IMG/VR virus record: IMGVR_UViG_3300012209_000011
Span: 1-44,433 of that record
Strand: one strand, 5' to 3'
Source: a virus
DNA: 44,433 nt
Positions within the stretch are counted from its first letter, which is position 1, and each line of letters starts with the position of its first letter. A program made the position numbers and the translations under genes. The notes below the pieces were generated by a model, which was given only the letters and a program-made list of their open reading frames with translations, was not told the origin of the DNA and did not search any database. Shown here in pieces: positions 3,701 through 44,433 of the stretch.

Positions 3701-3824
3701 CGGATGGTTCTCCGGGAACTGGTTCGACTGATTGTACGTCCGCATCCTGGACGCTAGGCCCACCCAACGATTTGCGAATCTGTTCTTTGCGGCGCGGTGA
3801 CATGAACGCGAACAAGGTCATCAT
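3693..3824 (-). CDS. Very small protein next to small terminase (43 aa)
   Basis: Starts at a double ATG (MMTLFAFMSPRRKEQIRK) preceded by GAGGAG. It ends in an acidic Pro-rich tail (VEPVPGEPSDG). It is too small to classify. It is the first gene after the small terminase and overlaps the next start, so it is probably translated; the second ATG has the better spacing to the GAGGAG. Confidence 0.5.
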   Translation of the reverse strand: MMTLFAFMSPRRKEQIRKSLGGPSVQDADVQSVEPVPGEPSDG

Positions 3825-3850
3825 AACTCCTCGCGCTCTTGCTCCCGACA

Positions 3851-3868
3851 CATGCCAGTATGGGCATG
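3851..3868. other. Perfect inverted repeat CATGCC-N6-GGCATG
   Basis: Six-base arms with a six-base loop lie in the short gap after the small terminase gene. There is no T-run on either side, so it is not a classical terminator. It could be a weak RNA hairpin or a protein site. Confidence 0.45.
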
Positions 3869-3900
3869 GTTTGCCGAGAGGCGTCTTTTTCCGCGCCGAT

Positions 3901-4383
3901 TCACTTCGTCTCCTCGACGACTGCGTCGATAGGAGCGGATTTCAGAAGAGCTCTCGCCGGTGCCTGCAATAGAGCACTGATGTGCAGCTCGCCGATCGAC
4001 AGCGGCTGCGCCGCCTTCTCCTTCGGCTCGCCGTACTTTTCGCGATCGTAGATTGTTGCCAGCCAACGCATGTAGCCGGCGACCTGCGTCGCCTTGTTGA
4101 TCGCGTCGCGGTTGAGCTCCGCGTTCTCGAGCCGCTCGAGCCCACGTTCGGCGAGCGTCTCCGCGTACACCTTGTTGGCGATCGCCAATGCCTCCGCGAA
4201 CTTCTCGGACTCCTTGGCGGCCGACTTCATCATCGTGTAGATGAACGAGTACGAGCAGCCGACGTCCTTCGCAATCGTGCCCCACGACTCGCCGCCGGCG
4301 CGACGCTCGAGGAGGGCGGTCCAGCCGCCAAGCTCGTTCTTGATGCGTGCGAGCCACGCCCTACGCTTCGGTGTCGATGCCAC
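3901..4383 (-). CDS. terS: Terminase small subunit (probable)
   Basis: A protein of 160 residues from the GTG at 4383, which has a G-rich Shine-Dalgarno-like run just before it; the frame stays open farther up but has no ATG. Residues 31-53 (ESWGTIAKDVGCSYSFIY) read as a helix-turn-helix. They are followed by a long charged helix (residues 54-118) ending RWLATIYDREKYGEPKEK, an arrangement typical of small terminases that bind the packaging site and form a ring. It is the first gene of the late operon, next to the repeat-bearing control region. The large terminase is downstream in the same operon when the genome is closed into a circle. A Cro-like regulator is less likely because of the long helical tail. 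Confidence 0.75.
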   Translation of the reverse strand: MASTPKRRAWLARIKNELGGWTALLERRAGGESWGTIAKDVGCSYSFIYTMMKSAAKESEKFAEALAIANKVYAETLAERGLERLENAELNRDAINKATQVAGYMRWLATIYDREKYGEPKEKAAQPLSIGELHISALLQAPARALLKSAPIDAVVEETK

Positions 4384-4425
4384 TGGCCCCCACGGCGTCC
4401 TTGGTGACGTACCTGTCCCTACCAG

Positions 4426-4446
4426 AAATATAGCACCACTGTCAAG
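4426..4446 (-). promoter_or_regulatory. Late-operon element AAATATA-N7-TGTCAAG (copy 1)
   Basis: Read on the minus strand this is CTTGACA-N7-TATATTT, about 45 bases before the small terminase start. The same two blocks with the same 7-base spacing occur once more, at 37900-37920, before the scaffold gene. The halves resemble -35 and -10 hexamers, but the spacing is far too short for sigma-70. A TG one base before TATATT could make an extended -10. It is probably a promoter or activator site for late genes. Confidence 0.5.
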
Positions 4447-4460
4447 ACACCCCCGCGACA

Positions 4461-4476
4461 CCCTCCTCGAGGAGGG
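4461..4476. other. 16-bp perfect palindrome CCCTCCTC-GAGGAGGG
   Basis: A loop-free perfect palindrome between the late-operon element and the first GTGGTCCC repeat. The lack of a loop favours a dimeric protein site over an RNA hairpin. Confidence 0.55.
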
Positions 4477-4486
4477 GCAGGTTTAG

Positions 4487-4626
4487 GTGGTCCCGGACAG
4501 TGGTCCCCGCGGCCCCCTGTCTTGTAGACAGGGGGACCGCCGCGGTGAGATCACTGCTAACTCGTTTAAAATCAACAATGTAGGTGGTCCCCGAGGTGGT
4601 CCCCAAGTGGTCCCGGGGTGGTTCCC
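4487..4626 (+). repeat. GTGGTCCC iterons in the divergent control region
   Basis: GTGGTCCC begins at 4487, 4500, 4584, 4596 and 4607, with a variant GTGGTTCCC at 4618. The last four are 12, 11 and 11 bases apart, close to one helical turn, so bound proteins would line up on one face. A short AT-rich stretch (about 4562-4582, GTTTAAAATCAACAATG) precedes the phased set. The layout fits either an origin with iterons or a packaging site for the adjacent small terminase. Confidence 0.7.
4513..4535. other. 10-bp perfect hairpin CCCCCTGTCT-TGT-AGACAGGGGG
   Basis: It lies between the two groups of GTGGTCCC repeats. With a bulged base the stem can be lengthened by GCGG/CCGC. No T-run follows on either strand, so it is not an intrinsic terminator. 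It could be an extruded DNA hairpin or a structure in a leader RNA. Confidence 0.65.
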
Positions 4627-4711
4627 GGGGACCGCTCGTACCCGAAGATTTCCCGAAGTCCGCCAATCCGGCCCCCTGGCGCCCCCGTACCCGGACCATG
4701 TGTGTCATAAT

Positions 4712-4730
4712 GTGTGTCATAATGACACAC
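4712..4730. promoter_or_regulatory. Operator-like palindrome GTGTGTCAT-A-ATGACACAC
   Basis: Perfect nine-base arms around one central base. The core GTGTCA-TAA-TGACAC (4714-4728) has the same form as GTGTCA-TTT-TGACAC at 6036-6050. A half site, GTGTCATAA, lies just upstream at 4702-4710. It sits about 35 bases before the -35 of the early promoter, a usual place for a regulator. Confidence 0.7.
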
Positions 4731-4764
4731 TCCCTCGATGCCGGACTTTCGGGTCCTGTTCGGG

Positions 4765-4792
4765 TTGACTTCCTCGAGCCCACCCCTATATT
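4765..4792 (+). promoter_or_regulatory. Early promoter, sigma-70-like (TTGACT-N16-TATATT)
   Basis: TTGACT at 4765-4770 and TATATT at 4787-4792 are 16 bases apart. Six bases later comes the ATG of the first plus-strand gene, so the expected transcription start falls on or beside that ATG, and no ribosome-binding sequence fits between. It is the only good promoter seen for the 15-kb plus operon. Confidence 0.6.
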
Positions 4793-4798
4793 CCCACC

Positions 4799-4966
4799 AT
4801 GGACACCTACACTTGGACGAAGCGGCAGAAGAGGGACGCGCGGCGGGCTATCCGTCGCAGTCTACGAGAGGACCCGTCGATGGACAACCTCACGGACGTG
4901 GTGATGGAAGCCGCCCACATCCACGACTACTTGGAAGCACGCGCACTCATTCAGGAGCTCACATGA
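4799..4966 (+). CDS. First early protein, small and basic (55 aa)
   Basis: Begins MDTYTWTKRQKRDARRAIRR and continues as a probable helix with acidic residues. No family is recognised. If the promoter at 4765-4792 is used, its message is leaderless. An internal ATG (codon 28) with GAGGAC upstream is the alternative start and would leave only 28 residues. As the first gene expressed it may act on the host early in infection, which is inference from position. Confidence 0.6.
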   Translation: MDTYTWTKRQKRDARRAIRRSLREDPSMDNLTDVVMEAAHIHDYLEARALIQELT

Positions 4967-5055
4967 CACCGCTCGACTTAGGCGTTTTGTGCTTCATCGC
5001 CACGATGTTGGCGAGTCTGTTGTTTATTGCGTACACTTGGGGAGACGACGAATGA
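4963..5055 (+). CDS. Tiny membrane protein (30 aa)
   Basis: MTPLDLGVLCFIATMLASLL begins a single hydrophobic segment (about residues 6-24), followed by YTWGDDE. The start overlaps the previous stop (ATGA), and the stop overlaps the next start. It is too short to classify. Confidence 0.55.
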   Translation: MTPLDLGVLCFIATMLASLLFIAYTWGDDE

Positions 5056-5270
5056 CCGCGAACACCAAGAAGCAGCGCCGGCCCGTGGACGTCCGCATCG
5101 AGTACCACGGCAGCCTCTACCTGCTGCGGGCGCAGTCACGCGCGGCGGAGGAGTGGTTCCGCGCCAACGTCGACGAGGGCCAGTTCTTCGGTGGTGCCCA
5201 CGTTGTCGAGCCCCGCTACGTCTCCGACATTTTGCTCGGCCTCCGCGCCGAGGGATTGGTGGCACAGTGA
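5052..5270 (+). CDS. Small protein, unknown (72 aa)
   Basis: Starts MTANTKKQRRPVDVRIEYHG with a basic N-terminus, then alternating beta-like (SLYLLRAQ) and helical (AAEEWFRANV) segments and a C-terminal VSDILLGLRAEGLVA helix. No family is recognised. It overlaps both neighbours by four bases. Confidence 0.65.
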   Translation: MTANTKKQRRPVDVRIEYHGSLYLLRAQSRAAEEWFRANVDEGQFFGGAHVVEPRYVSDILLGLRAEGLVAQ

Positions 5271-5506
5271 CCATCGTCTCTCTCGCCGACCGCGCCGGCT
5301 GGACGATGCGACGCGTCTACTCAACCTTCACGTCGCGCGAGGTCTTCACCTCGCCAGACGGCGTCGAGTGGGTTCGCGTCTCGACGGACAGCTTCAACCT
5401 CGATCGTGGCGACATCCAGGTCGCGATGAAGACGCCTGGCCTGCGCCCGCTCACCCTCCGTCGGCGCGATGCGCTGGCGGGCAACCTGAAGAAGGAGGGC
5501 GTATGA
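5267..5506 (+). CDS. Small protein, unknown (79 aa)
   Basis: Uses the GTG overlapping the previous stop (GTGA). The product has a beta-rich middle (VYSTFTSREVFTSPDGVEWV) and a basic end (LTLRRRDALAGNLKKEG). No family is recognised. Confidence 0.6.
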   Translation: MTIVSLADRAGWTMRRVYSTFTSREVFTSPDGVEWVRVSTDSFNLDRGDIQVAMKTPGLRPLTLRRRDALAGNLKKEGV

Positions 5507-13334: not shown

Positions 13335-13937
13335 ATGGGCAAGTTCCCGTGGAAGCGGGACGAGGCGAAGGTCTGGACGACCGACATGACGCTCTCGTTC
13401 CCAAACCTGCTGAAGCCGGTCGTACCGGATAACGGTGGGACGCCGAAGTACTCGGCCTCCCTCGTCGCCGACGCGAACGAGTCGAAGCAGACGCTGCAGG
13501 AAGCGATCGTACAGGTCGCCGTCGAGGAGTGGGGCGACAAGGCGATCACGATGCTGAAGGCGGGCGAGATCGTCAACCCGATTCGCGGCGACGCAAAGGA
13601 CGTCGAGAAGAAGGGCTACCCGGTCGGCGCGTGGTTCCTGAACGTGCGGTCGGAGCGGAAGCCTGGCGTCGTGCACCCGTTCGATCTGGACGGGGACGGC
13701 AAACCCGACCCGATGACGGACGAGGAGATCGAGAAGAAGCTGTATCCCGGGGCGCGCGTGAAGGCCACGATCGTGGCGTTCACCTACGTCTACATGGGCA
13801 AGAAGGGCGTCAGCTTCGGCCTCAACAACCTGCAGTGGGTTGGTGACGGACCGCGGCTCGACGGCGGCAAGAAGGCGACGGACGACTTCGACATCGACCC
13901 GGCAGCGGTGCCGGCCGAGGTTGGGTTCGGCAAGTAA
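13335..13937 (+). CDS. DUF2815 single-stranded DNA-binding protein
   Basis: A protein of 200 residues with an acidic tail, beginning right after the nuclease gene. The core alternates beta strands (YSASLVADAN, GAWFLNVRSERKPG, ARVKATIVAFTYVYMGKKG, VSFGLNNLQWVG), as in an OB fold. The length and neighbour are those of the DUF2815 family, described as ssDNA-binding and related in fold to T7 gp2.5. The acidic C-terminal part (DDFDIDPAAV) is typical of such proteins and contacts other replication proteins. It should coat single strands for the polymerase and primase-helicase encoded downstream. Confidence 0.85.
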   Translation: MGKFPWKRDEAKVWTTDMTLSFPNLLKPVVPDNGGTPKYSASLVADANESKQTLQEAIVQVAVEEWGDKAITMLKAGEIVNPIRGDAKDVEKKGYPVGAWFLNVRSERKPGVVHPFDLDGDGKPDPMTDEEIEKKLYPGARVKATIVAFTYVYMGKKGVSFGLNNLQWVGDGPRLDGGKKATDDFDIDPAAVPAEVGFGK

Positions 13938-14140: not shown

Positions 14141-14389
14141 ATGACGCAGGCGTACATCGTGAAGGTCGAGCTGCCGTACGGGCTCGAGGTGACCGACAAA
14201 GGAAAAGTGTCGGAGCTCATCCCGCTAAAGGTCGCCGTGCTCGCCAGAAGCCGCACGGAGGCGTTCGCGATGGCGGCGGATGCGCTCGCGTTTATCACGG
14301 AGTCGAACGGCGTAGAGCTCCGCGGTCTCACGATCGAGAGCATTTACCCGATCGTGGGTGGAGTGACTCCACCGCAGGTCGAGTTGTGA
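14141..14389 (+). CDS. Small protein, unknown (82 aa)
   Basis: A strong AAGGAGG precedes the ATG. Strand-helix-strand pattern: MTQAYIVKVELPYG, SELIPLKVAVLARSRTEAFA, MAADALAFIT, LRGLTIESIYPIVGG. The Arg-Thr-Glu-Ala helix is like many small phage proteins with an alpha/beta fold of unknown role. Its stop overlaps the polymerase start. Confidence 0.65.
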   Translation: MTQAYIVKVELPYGLEVTDKGKVSELIPLKVAVLARSRTEAFAMAADALAFITESNGVELRGLTIESIYPIVGGVTPPQVEL

Positions 14390-16338
14390 GGCTCTTCCTC
14401 GACTTCGAGACGCGGTCGACGGTGGAGCTCCGCCGCTCGGGCGTCTACAAGTACGCCGCTCACCCCGACACCGACGTCTGGGTCGCCGCGTGGGCCTTTG
14501 ACCAGGAAGAGCCCGCGATCTGGTGGCCCGAAGATGAGGTGCCGGTGCGCATCCGCGACCACATCGCAGCCGGGGGCGACCTGATCGCCCACAACGCGGC
14601 CTTCGAGCGTATCATGCACCGCGAGGTGCTCGTCTCGCGCTACGGCTGGCCCGCTGCGACGCTCGAGCAGTGGCACTGCACGGCTGCCGAAGCCGCCGCC
14701 CTAGCCCTGCCCCGCCGGCTGGAGCAGGTTTGCGACGTCTTAAGACTACCGGTGCGGAAGGACATGGAGGGGCACCGGCTCATGTTGCAGATGTGCCGCC
14801 CGCGGCGCTTCGAGGACGATGGGCGGCCGATCTGGTGGGACGACGCGGAGAAGTTGAAGCGGCTCGGCGCGTACTGCGCGACCGACGTGAAGGCGGAGCA
14901 GCTGCTCTTCAAGGCGCTTAGGCGGTTGTCTGCCGACGAGCGCCAGGTGTATCTCCACAACGAGCGGGTGAACGACCGCGGAGTCGCACTCGACCTGGGA
15001 CTGGCCGGCGCCGCGCAGCAGATCGCGAAGAAAGAGATCGCGCGCCAGAACCTGCTCATGCGGCAGGCGACGGGCGGGAAGGTCGACAAGGTCACGAAGA
15101 TTGCGAAGCTGAAGGAGTGGGTCGCGTCGCAGGGACTCGAGACCGACACGCTCCGTGCGAAGGTGCTCGACGGGCTGATCGTCGAGGCGAAGGAGCTCTC
15201 CCCCGAGCTGGCGGAGGCACTGACGGCGCGGAAGGAAGCGGCGAAGTCGTCGGTCTCCAAGCTGCAGGCGATGTTCGACGTCGCCGACGCCGACGGGCGG
15301 GCCCGCGGCCTCCTGATGTACCACGGCGCCTCGACCGGACGCGACACGGGGAAGTTCATCCAGCCCCAGAACATGCCGCGCGGGCTCGAGGTGAAGAAGC
15401 ACGAGGAGGAGTGGATCGCGCGAGTCCTCGACGGCACGCTGCCGGAGAAGGCGGCGGAGGCGAACCTCACCGTCCTGACGGTGCTGTCGGGACTCCTGCG
15501 GTCGATGATCGTGCCGGCGCGTGGCAACCTCTTCTTTTGCGGCGACTACGCCCAGATCGAGGCGCGCGTCGTTGCCTGGCTTGCCGACTGCACGTTGATG
15601 TTGCAGCAGTTTGCCGAGAAGCGTCCGATCTACATCGAAATGGCGGAGAAGATTTTCGGCACTAAGGTCACGAAGGAGATGCCTGAGTACACGGTCGGGA
15701 AGTCAGCCGTCCTCGGCTGCGGCTTCGGCCTCGGTGAGAACAAGTTCGTGACGCAATTCGACGCGTCGCCCTATGTGGCGCACCTCGCCGTGACGACGTA
15801 CCGGGAGACCTACCCGGAGATCGTCGACTTCTGGGCGAACCTGAACCGGGCGGCGCTGAACGCCGTCGGCGCCGAGAAGACGACGTACCAGGTCGGCCGG
15901 CTGCTCTTCCGGCGCGAGGGTGCCTTCCTCTGGATTCGGTTGCCGTCGGGTCGGCTCCTAGCGTACCACATGCCGTCGATCATCCAGCGGCCGATGCCGT
16001 GGGATGCGAGCGACGTGCGGCCGGCGGTCGAGTACTCCGGCTTCAACAGCTACACGCACCAGTGGGAGCGGCTGTCGATGTATGGCGGCTTCATCGCCGA
16101 GAACGTCACGCAGGCGATCGCCCGAGACCTGATGATGGCAGGTGCCTTACGGACGGAGGCGGCAGGCTTCGCGACCGTCCTGAAGGTGCACGACGAAGTC
16201 CTAGCGGAGGCGCCCGCGGACGTGCTGCAAGTCGGCGGCCTTCACATGTTCAACGAGCTCTTGGAGACGCCGCCCGAATGGGCCGACGGCCTCCCGATCG
16301 AGGCCGAGTCCTGGGCCGGCACGAGGTACAAGAAATGA
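14386..16338 (+). CDS. DNA polymerase, family A, with 3'-5' exonuclease domain
   Basis: A protein of 650 residues from a GTG overlapping the previous stop. Exonuclease motifs: LDFETRS (Asp6, Glu8), AHNAAFER (Asn70) and YCATDVKAE (Asp167). Polymerase motifs: A is GDYAQIEARVV (catalytic Asp387), B is VGKSAVLGCGFG (Lys439), and C is KVHDEVLAEAP (His602-Asp603-Glu604). The position matching E. coli Pol I Phe762 is Leu443, and that matching Tyr766 is Phe447. There is no 5'-3' exonuclease. It replicates the phage genome together with the ssDNA-binding protein upstream and the primase-helicase downstream. Confidence 0.95.
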   Translation: MRLFLDFETRSTVELRRSGVYKYAAHPDTDVWVAAWAFDQEEPAIWWPEDEVPVRIRDHIAAGGDLIAHNAAFERIMHREVLVSRYGWPAATLEQWHCTAAEAAALALPRRLEQVCDVLRLPVRKDMEGHRLMLQMCRPRRFEDDGRPIWWDDAEKLKRLGAYCATDVKAEQLLFKALRRLSADERQVYLHNERVNDRGVALDLGLAGAAQQIAKKEIARQNLLMRQATGGKVDKVTKIAKLKEWVASQGLETDTLRAKVLDGLIVEAKELSPELAEALTARKEAAKSSVSKLQAMFDVADADGRARGLLMYHGASTGRDTGKFIQPQNMPRGLEVKKHEEEWIARVLDGTLPEKAAEANLTVLTVLSGLLRSMIVPARGNLFFCGDYAQIEARVVAWLADCTLMLQQFAEKRPIYIEMAEKIFGTKVTKEMPEYTVGKSAVLGCGFGLGENKFVTQFDASPYVAHLAVTTYRETYPEIVDFWANLNRAALNAVGAEKTTYQVGRLLFRREGAFLWIRLPSGRLLAYHMPSIIQRPMPWDASDVRPAVEYSGFNSYTHQWERLSMYGGFIAENVTQAIARDLMMAGALRTEAAGFATVLKVHDEVLAEAPADVLQVGGLHMFNELLETPPEWADGLPIEAESWAGTRYKK

Positions 16339-16496: not shown

Positions 16497-16642
16497 AAAC
16501 ATACGTCTTTGAGCGACAGACCATCGAAGAGGTAGACGCGTACTCGGAGGAGGAAGCGCGGGTGCGGCTGGCGGAGCTCGGCTACCTCGAGGACGAATTC
16601 GAGCTGATCGACGTGTGGGGGTCCGATGCTGACAACCGCTGA
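16493..16642 (+). CDS. Small acidic protein, unknown (49 aa)
   Basis: MKTYVFERQTIEEVDAYSEE then a helix (ARVRLAELGYLED) and strand (FELIDVWGSD). This strand-helix-strand pattern is common in tiny phage proteins of unknown role. GGAGGGGCGA precedes the start, and the end overlaps the primase gene by 17 bases. Confidence 0.6.
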   Translation: MKTYVFERQTIEEVDAYSEEEARVRLAELGYLEDEFELIDVWGSDADNR

Positions 16643-18458
16643 AGGGGGGCTGGTCCGAGCAAGCGGTCTCGGGTGGGACGGCAAGCCGATGCGCGAGGTG
16701 GCGCTCTGCCTCGTCGAGCATGGCTGGCCCGTCTTCCCCTGCGGCCTCGACAAAGCACCGCTCGTCCCGACCGGCTTCAAGGCGCGGACGAAGAACGTGC
16801 AGCAGATCGAGCAGTGGTGGGCCCTGCATCCTGAGGCCCTGCCGGCGATCTGCCCCGGCGACAACGAGCTCGCGGCGCTCGACATCGACTCCTCCGGCGC
16901 CTGGCTCAAGGCGGAGGCGGCGCACGTCTCCTGCTTGACGGGCCTGATCGTCGAGTCGGGTGGAACATCGCAGCCGTTCGGCATCGTGAGTGGAGTCGTG
17001 ACGCCGCGGCACGTCTACGTGCGCACCGGCGCGGCTCCGAAGCTGCCGGGCGTGGTCGTCCGCTACCTAGCCGGGTACGTCATCGCGCCTGGCGCCCGCC
17101 GCGGCAGTCGCGTCTACCGCGTCACGGACTCGCATGAGCCGCCGCTCTGGGAGCGGGAGATCGAGACGCAGAAGACCCTGCCCGACGTCGAGCCGACGGT
17201 CATCGGGGTCGATCTGTCGCGGCTCGGGCGCGTCGAGCAGCTCGTCCGGGCAATCCCGAACCCGCTCGAAAACGACCGCGCGAAGTACATCGCCATGGCG
17301 CACATCATCCAGGGCGCCGTCGGCCCCGCCGGCCGCGACATCTTCCTCGAGTGGGCCGGCCGCTGGCCGGGGAAGGTGAACCGGGCCGAGGACGAGCGGG
17401 TCTGGGACAGTCTGCCAGCTTCGCATCTTGGCTTCGAGGACCTCTGGGTGCTCGCGTCGAAATACATCGACACCTCGGCGGAGCAGCAGCGGGCCGCAAT
17501 GGGGGACTTCGACATCCTGGGCCCTAAGGCGCCAGACCCCGAACCCGGCATCAAGTCGAGGGTCTGGCACTGGCTCGAGGAGTTGCAGCAGATGCCGGAG
17601 CTCCTCGCGGAGCCGACGCCGGTCGTTCCGTTCATCGCGTGGCCGGGTCGCAAAACCCTCTTCGCCGGCCGAGAGAAGTCTGGCAAGTCGACACTCGTCT
17701 GCGCCGGGGTCGCGCGGGCGACGCAGGGCGTCGACTTCCTTGGACAGCCTACGACCCCGCAGCGGGTGTTGTGGGTCACGGAGGAGTCGCGCGCCGACAT
17801 CACGCGGCGGGCGACGGAGATGGGGGCGAAGCCGCGCGGCATCGCTATCGTCTCGATCGGGCAAGACCCGTGGGGCGACCTGGCGACCGCCTTCAAGGAG
17901 ACGGCGCCGCACGTCGTCGTGATCGACTCCCTGTCGTGGTTTGCAAGTCTCGGGGAGGAGCAGGAGAACAGCGTGGGGGCGTGGTTGCCCATCTTCAAGA
18001 AGTTCAGCAAACTGACGGACGCCGGCGTCGCCCTCGTCCTGCTGCACCATTCGGTCAAGTACTCGGAGACGGGCGAGTACCGGGGCTCGACCGCGATCGG
18101 GGCGAACGTCGACGTCATCCTGCGGACGAAGAAGTTCGCCGACGGGAGCCGGCACCGGAGCTTCCGCGCCGACAGCCGGATGAACATCGCGCGGGAGTTC
18201 GACGTGACACTTCTCGACCTGAAGACGGGAGAGTTCAAGCTGACGCAGGGGGTCGAGGAGATCATGGAGGAGAAGCTCGAGGACCAGATCGTGCTCTACC
18301 TCGCGCAGCATCCCGGGGTGTCGCTCAACACCCTCAAAGAGGCCGTTGGGAAGCGGAAGGAGGCCGTGCGGGAGGCACTCGGGCGGCTCGGCACGCAGGT
18401 CGTCTTCGACAAGGGGTGGAGTCTGCAGCCTGACTTCGCACCTGTGGAGGTATCGTGA
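16626..18458 (+). CDS. Primase-polymerase fused to RecA/DnaB-like helicase
   Basis: A protein of 610 residues. Residues 23-200 are an archaeo-eukaryotic primase-type prim-pol domain: FPCGLDKAPLVPTGF, then IEQWWALHPEA, then the metal-binding ALDID (Asp86, Asp88). Residues 330-540 are a P-loop domain with Walker A GREKSGKST (348-356) and Walker B VVVIDSLSW (Asp434), followed by LLHHSVKYSETGEYRGST. The C-terminal 70 residues look like a winged helix (LNTLKEAVGKRKEAVREALG). It should both prime and unwind, so no separate primase or helicase is needed; none is seen. The same two-domain plan is used by cyanophage S-2L. Confidence 0.9.
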   Translation: MLTTAEGGLVRASGLGWDGKPMREVALCLVEHGWPVFPCGLDKAPLVPTGFKARTKNVQQIEQWWALHPEALPAICPGDNELAALDIDSSGAWLKAEAAHVSCLTGLIVESGGTSQPFGIVSGVVTPRHVYVRTGAAPKLPGVVVRYLAGYVIAPGARRGSRVYRVTDSHEPPLWEREIETQKTLPDVEPTVIGVDLSRLGRVEQLVRAIPNPLENDRAKYIAMAHIIQGAVGPAGRDIFLEWAGRWPGKVNRAEDERVWDSLPASHLGFEDLWVLASKYIDTSAEQQRAAMGDFDILGPKAPDPEPGIKSRVWHWLEELQQMPELLAEPTPVVPFIAWPGRKTLFAGREKSGKSTLVCAGVARATQGVDFLGQPTTPQRVLWVTEESRADITRRATEMGAKPRGIAIVSIGQDPWGDLATAFKETAPHVVVIDSLSWFASLGEEQENSVGAWLPIFKKFSKLTDAGVALVLLHHSVKYSETGEYRGSTAIGANVDVILRTKKFADGSRHRSFRADSRMNIAREFDVTLLDLKTGEFKLTQGVEEIMEEKLEDQIVLYLAQHPGVSLNTLKEAVGKRKEAVREALGRLGTQVVFDKGWSLQPDFAPVEVS

Positions 18459-34489: not shown

Positions 34490-35073
34490 TAGTGTCCCCG
34501 GAAGACGTCGTAGGCACCCTTCACTGCGAGGACCGTCTTCACAATCTGGAAGGTGGTCCCGGAGAAGAATCCCTGCTTGTTTGCCTTCTTGAGCTTCTCG
34601 ACGAGGGCGGCGTTCGAGGAACGGAGTCCGACAATCTGCTGATCCCGATCGAGTACCTGGGCCTGCAGGGTGACGACTTGGGCGTTCGCCGCGGTGATCG
34701 CGTTCTGTTGCTGTTCGATCACAACGGTAGCCTTATTTAGCGCCACCTTGTAAATAACGATCGAGTCGGATGACGATTTGGCGGACTGCAGCGAGTCGAT
34801 CGCTGCGTGCATGGCGGTGTGCGCCACGCTGGCGAATGTACGTGCGGCGGCCTCGTCTGCCGCCTTCTGGGCAATGGTCGCCCGGGAGACGGAGTCGCGA
34901 GCCGCCGCGCTGACGGAGTCACGCTTCGACTGGACGGTGACTGAGTCGGCGTACTGTTGAACGAGCGCCCGCTCGACCGCCTGCTTCGTGTGATCGTGTA
35001 CCCACAATGCCGCGAGGAGAACTGCCAGCGCGACGAGGAGAGGACTCGAGTACTTCTGTACCCACGTCAACAT
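34489..35073 (-). CDS. Membrane-anchored coiled-coil protein, spanin-like
   Basis: A protein of 194 residues. Residues 11-25 (PLLVALAVLLAALWV) anchor it near the N-terminus. The rest is a long helix with RDSV repeats (SKRDSVSAAARDSVSRATI) and a Leu/Val heptad region (AQVVTLQAQVLDRDQQIVGL). This is the plan of inner-membrane spanins (Rz), which bridge to an outer-membrane partner. No clear partner (Rz1) is nested here, and the lysis genes are 4 kb away, so a virion or membrane role cannot be excluded. Confidence 0.55.
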   Translation of the reverse strand: MLTWVQKYSSPLLVALAVLLAALWVHDHTKQAVERALVQQYADSVTVQSKRDSVSAAARDSVSRATIAQKAADEAAARTFASVAHTAMHAAIDSLQSAKSSSDSIVIYKVALNKATVVIEQQQNAITAANAQVVTLQAQVLDRDQQIVGLRSSNAALVEKLKKANKQGFFSGTTFQIVKTVLAVKGAYDVFRGH

Positions 35074-42788: not shown

Positions 42789-44260
42789 TAGACGAGTCCT
42801 GGGTCAGAGCGCGCGATCTTCGAGCGCCACGAGGTGGGTGCATTCCCACGGAGGAGCGTAATCTCGTCCGTGATGAGTGTCAGCAGAAACGATTCAGCGA
42901 TGTCGGGGGAACGGAAGCCGCGCTTCTTGAGCTCGTCCTTCTGTTCCGCCATGATCTTGTTGCCCTTGCCGGGCCGGTACTTGTACTTGGTTCTGGTCAG
43001 CTCGCCGACGAGGTCATCCCCGCCCGATGGCTTCCGGTAGTACTCGGGGATCGAGCAGTCGAGGCCGGCAAACCACTCCTTGCCCTTGAACCACGCCTCA
43101 GTCCGCAAGTTGACGTACTTCTCCGCGTTGACCGTCGCCGGTGACTCGCCCACGTTGATGCCGCGAACGGGCAGGCCGAGGGCGCGAAGCGTATCGAGGA
43201 CGCCGGCCCCCATGCCGATGACGTCGATGTTGATCTGCGCCGGCCGCAGCGGCTGCGGCGTCGTATCGTACTCGAGCTTCACCTTCACCGCGGTCGCCGC
43301 CAGGTCCAGGCCGGCCCACCACTTGATCGGCTCGATGATGCTCTTGCCCTGGCGCTTGCAGAGGGCGCAGCGGTCGGAGCCGAAGCGCGCGACGTCCAAC
43401 CCCCAGATCACCGGCGTGGTCGGCGACACGATGATGTCGCGCCCGATGCTCGAGGAGACAGACGCCCACGAGATGATCGTGTCGGAGTCCGTCGTCGGGA
43501 ACTCGCCCAGGATACGGACGCGGTACTCGTTCGAGTCCTCGCCCCATGCCTCACGAACGAACTCACCGTAGCTCGGGTCGACGCCCGCCACCGTGAGGGA
43601 GTTGACGTGGAATCGCTTCCAGGTCGTCCCCTTCGTGTGCGAGTCGAAGAAGAACCCCTGCCCCTTCAGCGGGTTGCCGGCGAGCACCATCGTCGCGAGC
43701 TTCCCCGACATCGACCCGCCGGCCGACTCGAAGATTTTGTTCGGGACGCCCGACGCCTCGTCCGCGATGAGCAACACGTTGTCCGAGTGGACGCCCTGCA
43801 GCGCCTCGGGCTGCTCTGGCCGCGCGGTGGCGATCGTGATGTAGCTCTCCGCCGGCTTCGACTTGTGTTCGGCCCGGTCGTGGCCGATGACGACGAGGTC
43901 CTGCATCCACGGTAGCTTCAAGCGCGAGTGCCAGACTTTGAAGTCGGCCCAGAGCACGTTGAAGAGCTGCTTCTCCGTCGGCGCCGTGATGGCGGACCGC
44001 TGGGGGAAGCGGGTGAGGATGTGGTGCAGGGCGGCCCAGGACAGCCAGGTCGACTTGCCGACGCCATGCCCCGACCGAATCGTGATGTACCGCTCGCGGG
44101 CGTCGTAGGCGGCCGACACGTCCTTCTGCCAGTCGTACGGGCCGCCAGGGAGGTACTTCTCCACCTCGAGGCACTCGTACACGAACAGCATCAGGTTCGG
44201 ACCGTAGCGGTCCGCGAAGGCAATGAGCGGATTCTTCTCGACCCCCACCGGTGTCGTCAT
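42788..44260 (-). CDS. terL: Terminase large subunit
   Basis: A protein of 490 residues. The ATPase has Walker A SGHGVGKST (63-71) and Walker B LLIADE (163-168). The nuclease has GLDVARFGSD (Asp289), NIDVIGMGAGV (Asp346) and SPDIAESFLLTL near the end. It drives DNA into the head and cuts it. Its start shares a base with the histidine phosphatase stop, and the portal start overlaps its own stop in the same way. The packaging strategy (headful or cos) cannot be read from the protein alone. Confidence 0.95.
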   Translation of the reverse strand: MTTPVGVEKNPLIAFADRYGPNLMLFVYECLEVEKYLPGGPYDWQKDVSAAYDARERYITIRSGHGVGKSTWLSWAALHHILTRFPQRSAITAPTEKQLFNVLWADFKVWHSRLKLPWMQDLVVIGHDRAEHKSKPAESYITIATARPEQPEALQGVHSDNVLLIADEASGVPNKIFESAGGSMSGKLATMVLAGNPLKGQGFFFDSHTKGTTWKRFHVNSLTVAGVDPSYGEFVREAWGEDSNEYRVRILGEFPTTDSDTIISWASVSSSIGRDIIVSPTTPVIWGLDVARFGSDRCALCKRQGKSIIEPIKWWAGLDLAATAVKVKLEYDTTPQPLRPAQINIDVIGMGAGVLDTLRALGLPVRGINVGESPATVNAEKYVNLRTEAWFKGKEWFAGLDCSIPEYYRKPSGGDDLVGELTRTKYKYRPGKGNKIMAEQKDELKKRGFRSPDIAESFLLTLITDEITLLRGNAPTSWRSKIARSDPGLV

Positions 44261-44433
44261 TACTGGCCGTCGATCTCGACGGGGTTCGGGTCGAACTGGT
44301 GGTCTAAGATCACCTGGCCGCCCTGGTCGGAGATGTGTAGGGCGACGACGCCGCCCGGGCCGACTGGTGACCGCAACCGGATAGGCGCCACGCCGGTCGA
44401 CAGCAGGTACGGCAGGACCGCGAAGTTGTGCGA
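44260..44433 (-). CDS. Histidine phosphatase, 3' part (repeats bases 1-123 of the window)
   Basis: This holds the C-terminal end of the gene whose start is at 606. Only 44260-44310 (17 codons, ending FDPNPVEIDGQ and TAA) is new; the rest duplicates 1-123. TAATG joins it to the large terminase. Joining the two pieces restores an uninterrupted 218-residue protein. Confidence 0.9.
   Translation of the reverse strand, partial: SHNFAVLPYLLSTGVAPIRLRSPVGPGGVVALHISDQGGQVILDHQFDPNPVEIDGQ
44311..44433. repeat. Direct terminal repeat, right copy
   Basis: Exact copy of 1-123; see the left copy for the meaning. Confidence 0.95.

Follow-up and report, generated by a model that had tools for sequence, protein, structure and literature searches.

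The only divergent intergenic gap of the phage genome analysed here (4384–4798) is, to judge from its architecture, quite probably a replication origin that is read by the phage's own primase-helicase, a PrimPol-AAA_25 protein. This reading is favoured by a layout common to four phages, by the association of similar arrays with PrimPol genes, and by likeness to PICI origins. The repeats and their phasing, the hairpin, the AT-rich patch, the four-phage layout, the concerted change of the repeat word, and the placement of arrays at PrimPol genes can be read from the sequences themselves. The alternatives weighed below overlap with this reading and with each other, and their probabilities need not sum to one.

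The phage and its divergent gap

The DNA is an IMG/VR virus contig of 44,433 bases, hereafter called the window. Its positions 1–123 and 44311–44433 are identical over 123 bases, indicating that the record was probably assembled as a circle. The + strand encodes an Enc34-type single-strand binding protein (13335–13937; PF10991, the former DUF2815), a PolA-type DNA polymerase (14386–16338; phrog_17, E 4e-85), and, in the same replication module as the polymerase, the 610-residue PrimPol-AAA_25 primase-helicase (16626–18458; PF09250 and PF13481). Other genes encode a DUF2800 exonuclease and portal, scaffold, and major head proteins, and many early proteins have no family match. Searches against phage records with the left 25 kb (megablast) and with 3800–5300 (blastn) gave no match. 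The replication module and TerL also occur (at 42–43%) in Sinorhizobium phage phiM5, a phage with 357-bp direct terminal repeats. Three phased copies of CTGACAG lie at an ORF end inside the direct terminal repeat of phiM5 (L018:276–304 and 43924–43952); these copies, which are partly coding, were left out of the evidence.

The gap adjoining the small terminase gene, which the sequence-only reading of this DNA had called the only large divergent one, is the sole divergent point on the map. On one side, the small terminase subunit TerS is encoded leftward (3901–4383, − strand; PF20901, E 4e-7), its start near 4383 being set by conservation; on the other side, the early genes run rightward. A syntenic gap is present in L011, L012, and L026. 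An early promoter, TTGACT-16-TATATT (4765–4792, + strand), is recognizable by its sequence. In the stretch 4765–4799, this promoter stops six bases short of the start codon (ATG) at which the first early gene begins, and the mRNA of that gene would be leaderless or nearly so. Close to the promoter, in the window and in all three relatives, is the palindrome GTGTGTCAT-A-ATGACACAC, which together with one additional half-site (4698–4730) looks like an operator. No terminator-like site was found in the gap, and no DnaA box (TTWTNCACA), of the kind that a DnaA-dependent origin would have, was found in the window. Cumulative GC skew is lowest near 5 kb, but skew is confounded with gene direction.

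Phased iterons around a hairpin and an AT-rich patch

The array at 4487–4625 consists of five exact copies of GTGGTCCC (4487–4494, 4500–4507, 4584–4591, 4596–4603, and 4607–4614) and a sixth, GTGGTTCC, with one mismatch (4618–4625), all on the + strand and with start-to-start distances of 13, 84, 12, 11, and 11. A sequence search thus recovered the six copies noticed earlier, together with the spacing of 11–12 bases ascribed to four of them, namely the last four (12, 11, and 11). This phased chain of four is the longest of its kind in the window and arose in none of 300 dinucleotide shuffles of the gap, a chain of three arising in two of the 300. The whole window contains one further exact GTGGTCCC, at 34553 (mean in whole-window shuffles, 2.1). 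Inverted near-copies, GCGGTCCC, occur on the − strand in the right arm of the hairpin (4533–4540) and after iteron 6 (4628–4635).

A hairpin (4498–4556) and an AT-rich patch (4550–4583) separate the two left iterons from the four right ones, in agreement with the position given earlier for the hairpin and with the two-set arrangement of the PICI type. The 10-bp perfect hairpin first described does exist, its arms enclosing a 3-nt loop (4513–4535), but it is merely the tip of a hairpin of about 24–25 pairs on the + strand (z −7.8 versus shuffles), in which a 9-bp tip, a 4-nt 3' bulge, a 7-bp stem, and a basal stem follow one another; iteron 2 lies within the left arm of the basal stem. The AT-rich patch, likewise present as noted before, is a candidate melting site of 34 bases with 32% GC, within the lowest 0.01% of the genome's 34-mers. 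It contains AACTCGTT (4559–4566, + strand), which recurs beside the array in the relatives: L012 has it unchanged, L011 has AACTCCTT instead, and G009 has its reverse complement.

Conserved layout and exchanged iteron words in relatives

The relatives were found by TerL and PolA searches; L011 and L012 share about 85% identity with the window in TerL, and G009 shares 81% in PolA and 55% in TerS. A single-protein scan of IMG/VR with TerS returned no relatives, an alignment scan of IMG/VR returned only the two already known, and a search with the conserved pattern of the terS promoter returned the same three and no others. In all three, which are IMG/VR phages, the gap next to terS contains a phased array together with a hairpin, and in each of them the gap array is the strongest repeat array. 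The words differ, however, being GTGGTCCC in the window, GTGCGTCT in G009, TCGGTACT in L011, and GGTTCCCG in L012. The proposal to look for the repeats in related phages is therefore answered in two parts: the layout recurs in all three, and the word is different in each. In G009, the spacing (12, 11, and 11) equals that of the window, and the spacers CAA and GGG are common to both. As read from the four sequences, the word has changed across all copies together while the layout has been kept. Sequence is kept far better in the flanks, both in the palindrome GTGTGTCAT-A-ATGACACAC and just upstream of terS, than in the iterons, which indicates that the iterons follow a different evolutionary rule from their flanks.

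The hairpin of G009 repeats the figure of the window's, with a 9-bp tip, a 4-nt bulge on the 3' side, a 7-bp stem, and an 8-bp base. When pairs were matched by helix order from the apex, without sequence alignment, 15 of the 24 pairs had both of their bases changed and no pair had a single base changed, counts that two unrelated paired sequences would also give, so that the point is the keeping of shape and not of sequence. The hairpin of L011 is similar in plan (z −6.5), and that of L012 barely beats shuffles (z −1.7).

Longer direct repeats containing AAGCCAAGTCTCTTGTG occur in the same gap of L012 (L012:800–930) and are absent from the window. G010, a fifth phage and a more distant one (E 7e-227 for TerL), has its strongest array, of CTGAAGC, in non-coding DNA ahead of a TerS-like gene; because the order of its genes is different, this phage was kept out of the scores.

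Similar arrays at the 3' ends of PrimPol genes

A scan of IMG/VR that took no account of genes and asked for three phased copies of GTGGTCCC gave nine stretches. In two unrelated contigs among them (L002 and L004), the array coincides with the 3' end of a gene whose product has the same PrimPol-AAA_25 architecture as that of the window. In another, L007, which is a contig without PrimPol, an array and a hairpin lie upstream of a terminase-like gene, and in L003, L006, and L009, the matches appeared by eye to be repeats inside coding sequence; L008 and L010 were further hits. In L005 (1661–2401), a putative initiator gene, read by eye and with a sub-threshold AAA_25 match, has a GTT/GTS linker encoded by GTGGTCCC-type iterons and is followed by a DnaB-like helicase gene, an arrangement that resembles phage lambda O and its origin.

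Conversely, 44 PrimPol genes were picked by protein alone (4 from IMG/VR and 40 from whole genomes, nearly all of one bacterial phylum), and the zone from −200 to +450 of the stop codon was taken as the 3' end. The strongest array fell in this zone for 28 of the 44 genes, about 7.6% being expected, and for 11 of the 12 strongest arrays of the survey; in the same test, PolA genes gave 5 of 63 versus 4.9 expected. Because some of the 44 loci are interrelated and many of the weaker arrays have three copies only, binomial p-values come out too small, and the comparison with PolA genes is more informative. Hairpins were also frequent at PrimPol 3' ends (12/42 versus 37/523), an enrichment left out of the evidence because transcription terminators are expected at gene 3' ends. 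The window differs from most PrimPol loci in that its array lies 12 kb from the start of the PrimPol gene and 14 kb from its stop; no array was found at that stop (18458), where an origin of the PICI kind, directly 3' of the initiator gene, would lie.

Strong arrays of many different words occur at the PrimPol 3' ends of L217–L256, where the partner domains are AAA_25, VapE, or DUF927. In Streptomyces phage mu1/6, the helicase gene gp21 carries eight copies of ACCTGCC at its 3' end (L258:5147–5312), and this array is a candidate origin in a named phage.

Candidate readers of the iterons

The sequence-only reading had named the DUF2815 protein among possible binders; as a member of the single-strand binding family PF10991, it is an unlikely reader of double-stranded iterons, and the primase-helicase is the better candidate. 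Between the window and G009, the HTH in the C-terminal domain of the primase-helicase (about residues 545–610) is the least conserved part, at 44% identity, whereas the N-terminal, middle, and AAA_25 parts are 64–73% identical; this covariation of reader and iterons rests on one pair, since the contigs of L011 and L012 end before their PrimPol genes. A structure model of the protein had a mean pLDDT of 43, a low confidence that was too poor for a fold search. The concerted replacement of the word suggests a recognition code common to the iterons and each phage's own primase-helicase.

The nearest alternative, itself unlikely, is that the array is an origin read by another early protein of the RepC kind, the PrimPol-AAA_25 protein being loaded later, as in RSF1010. 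RSF1010 divides the labour in this way (PMC4234260), and the window has its many early proteins without a family match from which such a reader could come; against it, the array sits at the PrimPol gene itself in L002 and L004, and no RepC-like protein was found in the subset of early proteins scanned.

Less probable still is the other function that had been offered beside an origin, a packaging (pac) site at which TerS would bind the iterons and packaging would start nearby. The array does adjoin terS in the window and in three relatives, and L007 has its similar array upstream of its terminase gene. The DNA-binding helices of TerS are, however, all but identical in L011 and L012, one conservative residue of the HTH being different, even though the iterons of these two phages differ. 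This is indirect evidence against a pac site; similar arrays lie at PrimPol genes in other elements, and the relative phiM5 has direct terminal repeats. Of the two functions first offered, the origin is well supported by comparison, and the pac site is not supported.

A purely regulatory array, in which a repressor or activator on the iterons would control the early and late promoters of the gap, fits the divergent promoters flanking the array and the phased operators common in phages, but it is about as improbable as a pac site, as some 140 bp separate the four-copy group from each of two −35 elements, that of the early promoter, which lies downstream of the group, and the conserved one of the terS promoter, a separate conserved palindrome (4712–4730) lies nearer the early promoter, and the AT-rich patch, the hairpin, and the link to PrimPol are left unexplained.

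Proposed mechanism and implications

For an origin read by the primase-helicase, we infer the following course of events. The C-terminal HTH of the PrimPol-AAA_25 protein would bind the GTGGTCCC iterons, whose phasing would line up several protomers along the same face of the helix. Once bound, this complex would melt the AT-rich patch (4550–4583) and build the helicase ring, and the exposed hairpin strand may serve as a loading or template site, on which the PrimPol domain would make the first primer. Synthesis would presumably be carried on by PolA with the single-strand binding protein.

We put forward, more tentatively, a general form of this proposal, which we regard as possible rather than probable: PrimPol-helicase phages and mobile elements may share one origin design, in which one fused protein reads a short phased word with its C-terminal HTH and primes on a shape-conserved hairpin, close relatives swapping the word and the HTH as a matched pair and the origin being able to leave the vicinity of the gene. 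If the matched-pair reading is true, the code relating HTH to word could be read from sequence. If the gap is indeed an origin read by the primase-helicase, the four phages offer iteron words and hairpins in matched sets on a common backbone, and cross-binding and swaps among them could reveal the part of the primase that reads the origin and the need for the hairpin shape. The survey also yields a simple rule for finding such origins, namely, to search the 3' end of a PrimPol gene for the strongest array of short repeats. To our knowledge, origins are known for few PrimPol phages. Iterons around an AT-rich patch are already known from PICI origins; new here are the distance of 12 kb between the site and the primase gene, the replacement of the word in all copies together, and a hairpin whose shape is conserved.

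Comparison with known systems

In PICI origins, an AT-rich region is flanked by iterons in two sets, and the whole follows directly on the 3' end of the initiator gene; for an E. coli PICI, the origin has been tested on plasmids (PMC6092414). The pri-rep-ori module of PICIs and SaPIs resembles the window in the two iteron sets flanking an AT-rich region and in its primase-helicase initiator. The position of the PICI origin directly after the initiator gene is shared by most of the PrimPol loci surveyed and not by the window, where the candidate origin lies beside terS, remote from the PrimPol gene, and contains a large hairpin, in a full phage and not a satellite.

In pRN1, which has a PrimPol initiator, a stem-loop conserved in shape but not in sequence is needed, and no specific binding was found for the replication protein (PMC4234260). 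Replicons of the pRN1 type share with the window a PrimPol initiator with a C-terminal winged helix and a shape-conserved stem-loop, essential in pRN1; the same keeping of shape without sequence is seen in the hairpins of our phages, weakly so in L012. pRN1 differs in having no iterons and an SF3 helicase, whereas the window has iterons and, in place of SF3, the RecA-type AAA_25 helicase domain.

The oriV of RSF1010 combines iterons, the RepA helicase, and an archaeo-eukaryotic primase that starts at the hairpins ssiA and ssiB (PMC4234260). There, three separate proteins act and RepC reads the iterons; the window encodes one fused primase-helicase, and no RepC homologue was identified among the early proteins scanned. 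The alpha protein of phage P4 unites a primase, a helicase, and a winged helix that binds the origin repeats (PMC4234260); its primase is of the Toprim type, unlike the PrimPol of the window, and no homology is claimed. Among related V. cholerae PLEs, the DNA-binding domain of the initiator RepA varies in step with the iterons of the origin (PMC8263062), and this initiator is a RepA_N protein without primase or helicase, with iterons of about 30 bp, unlike the window. The window combines features of these systems and departs from the PICI definition in the place of its origin.
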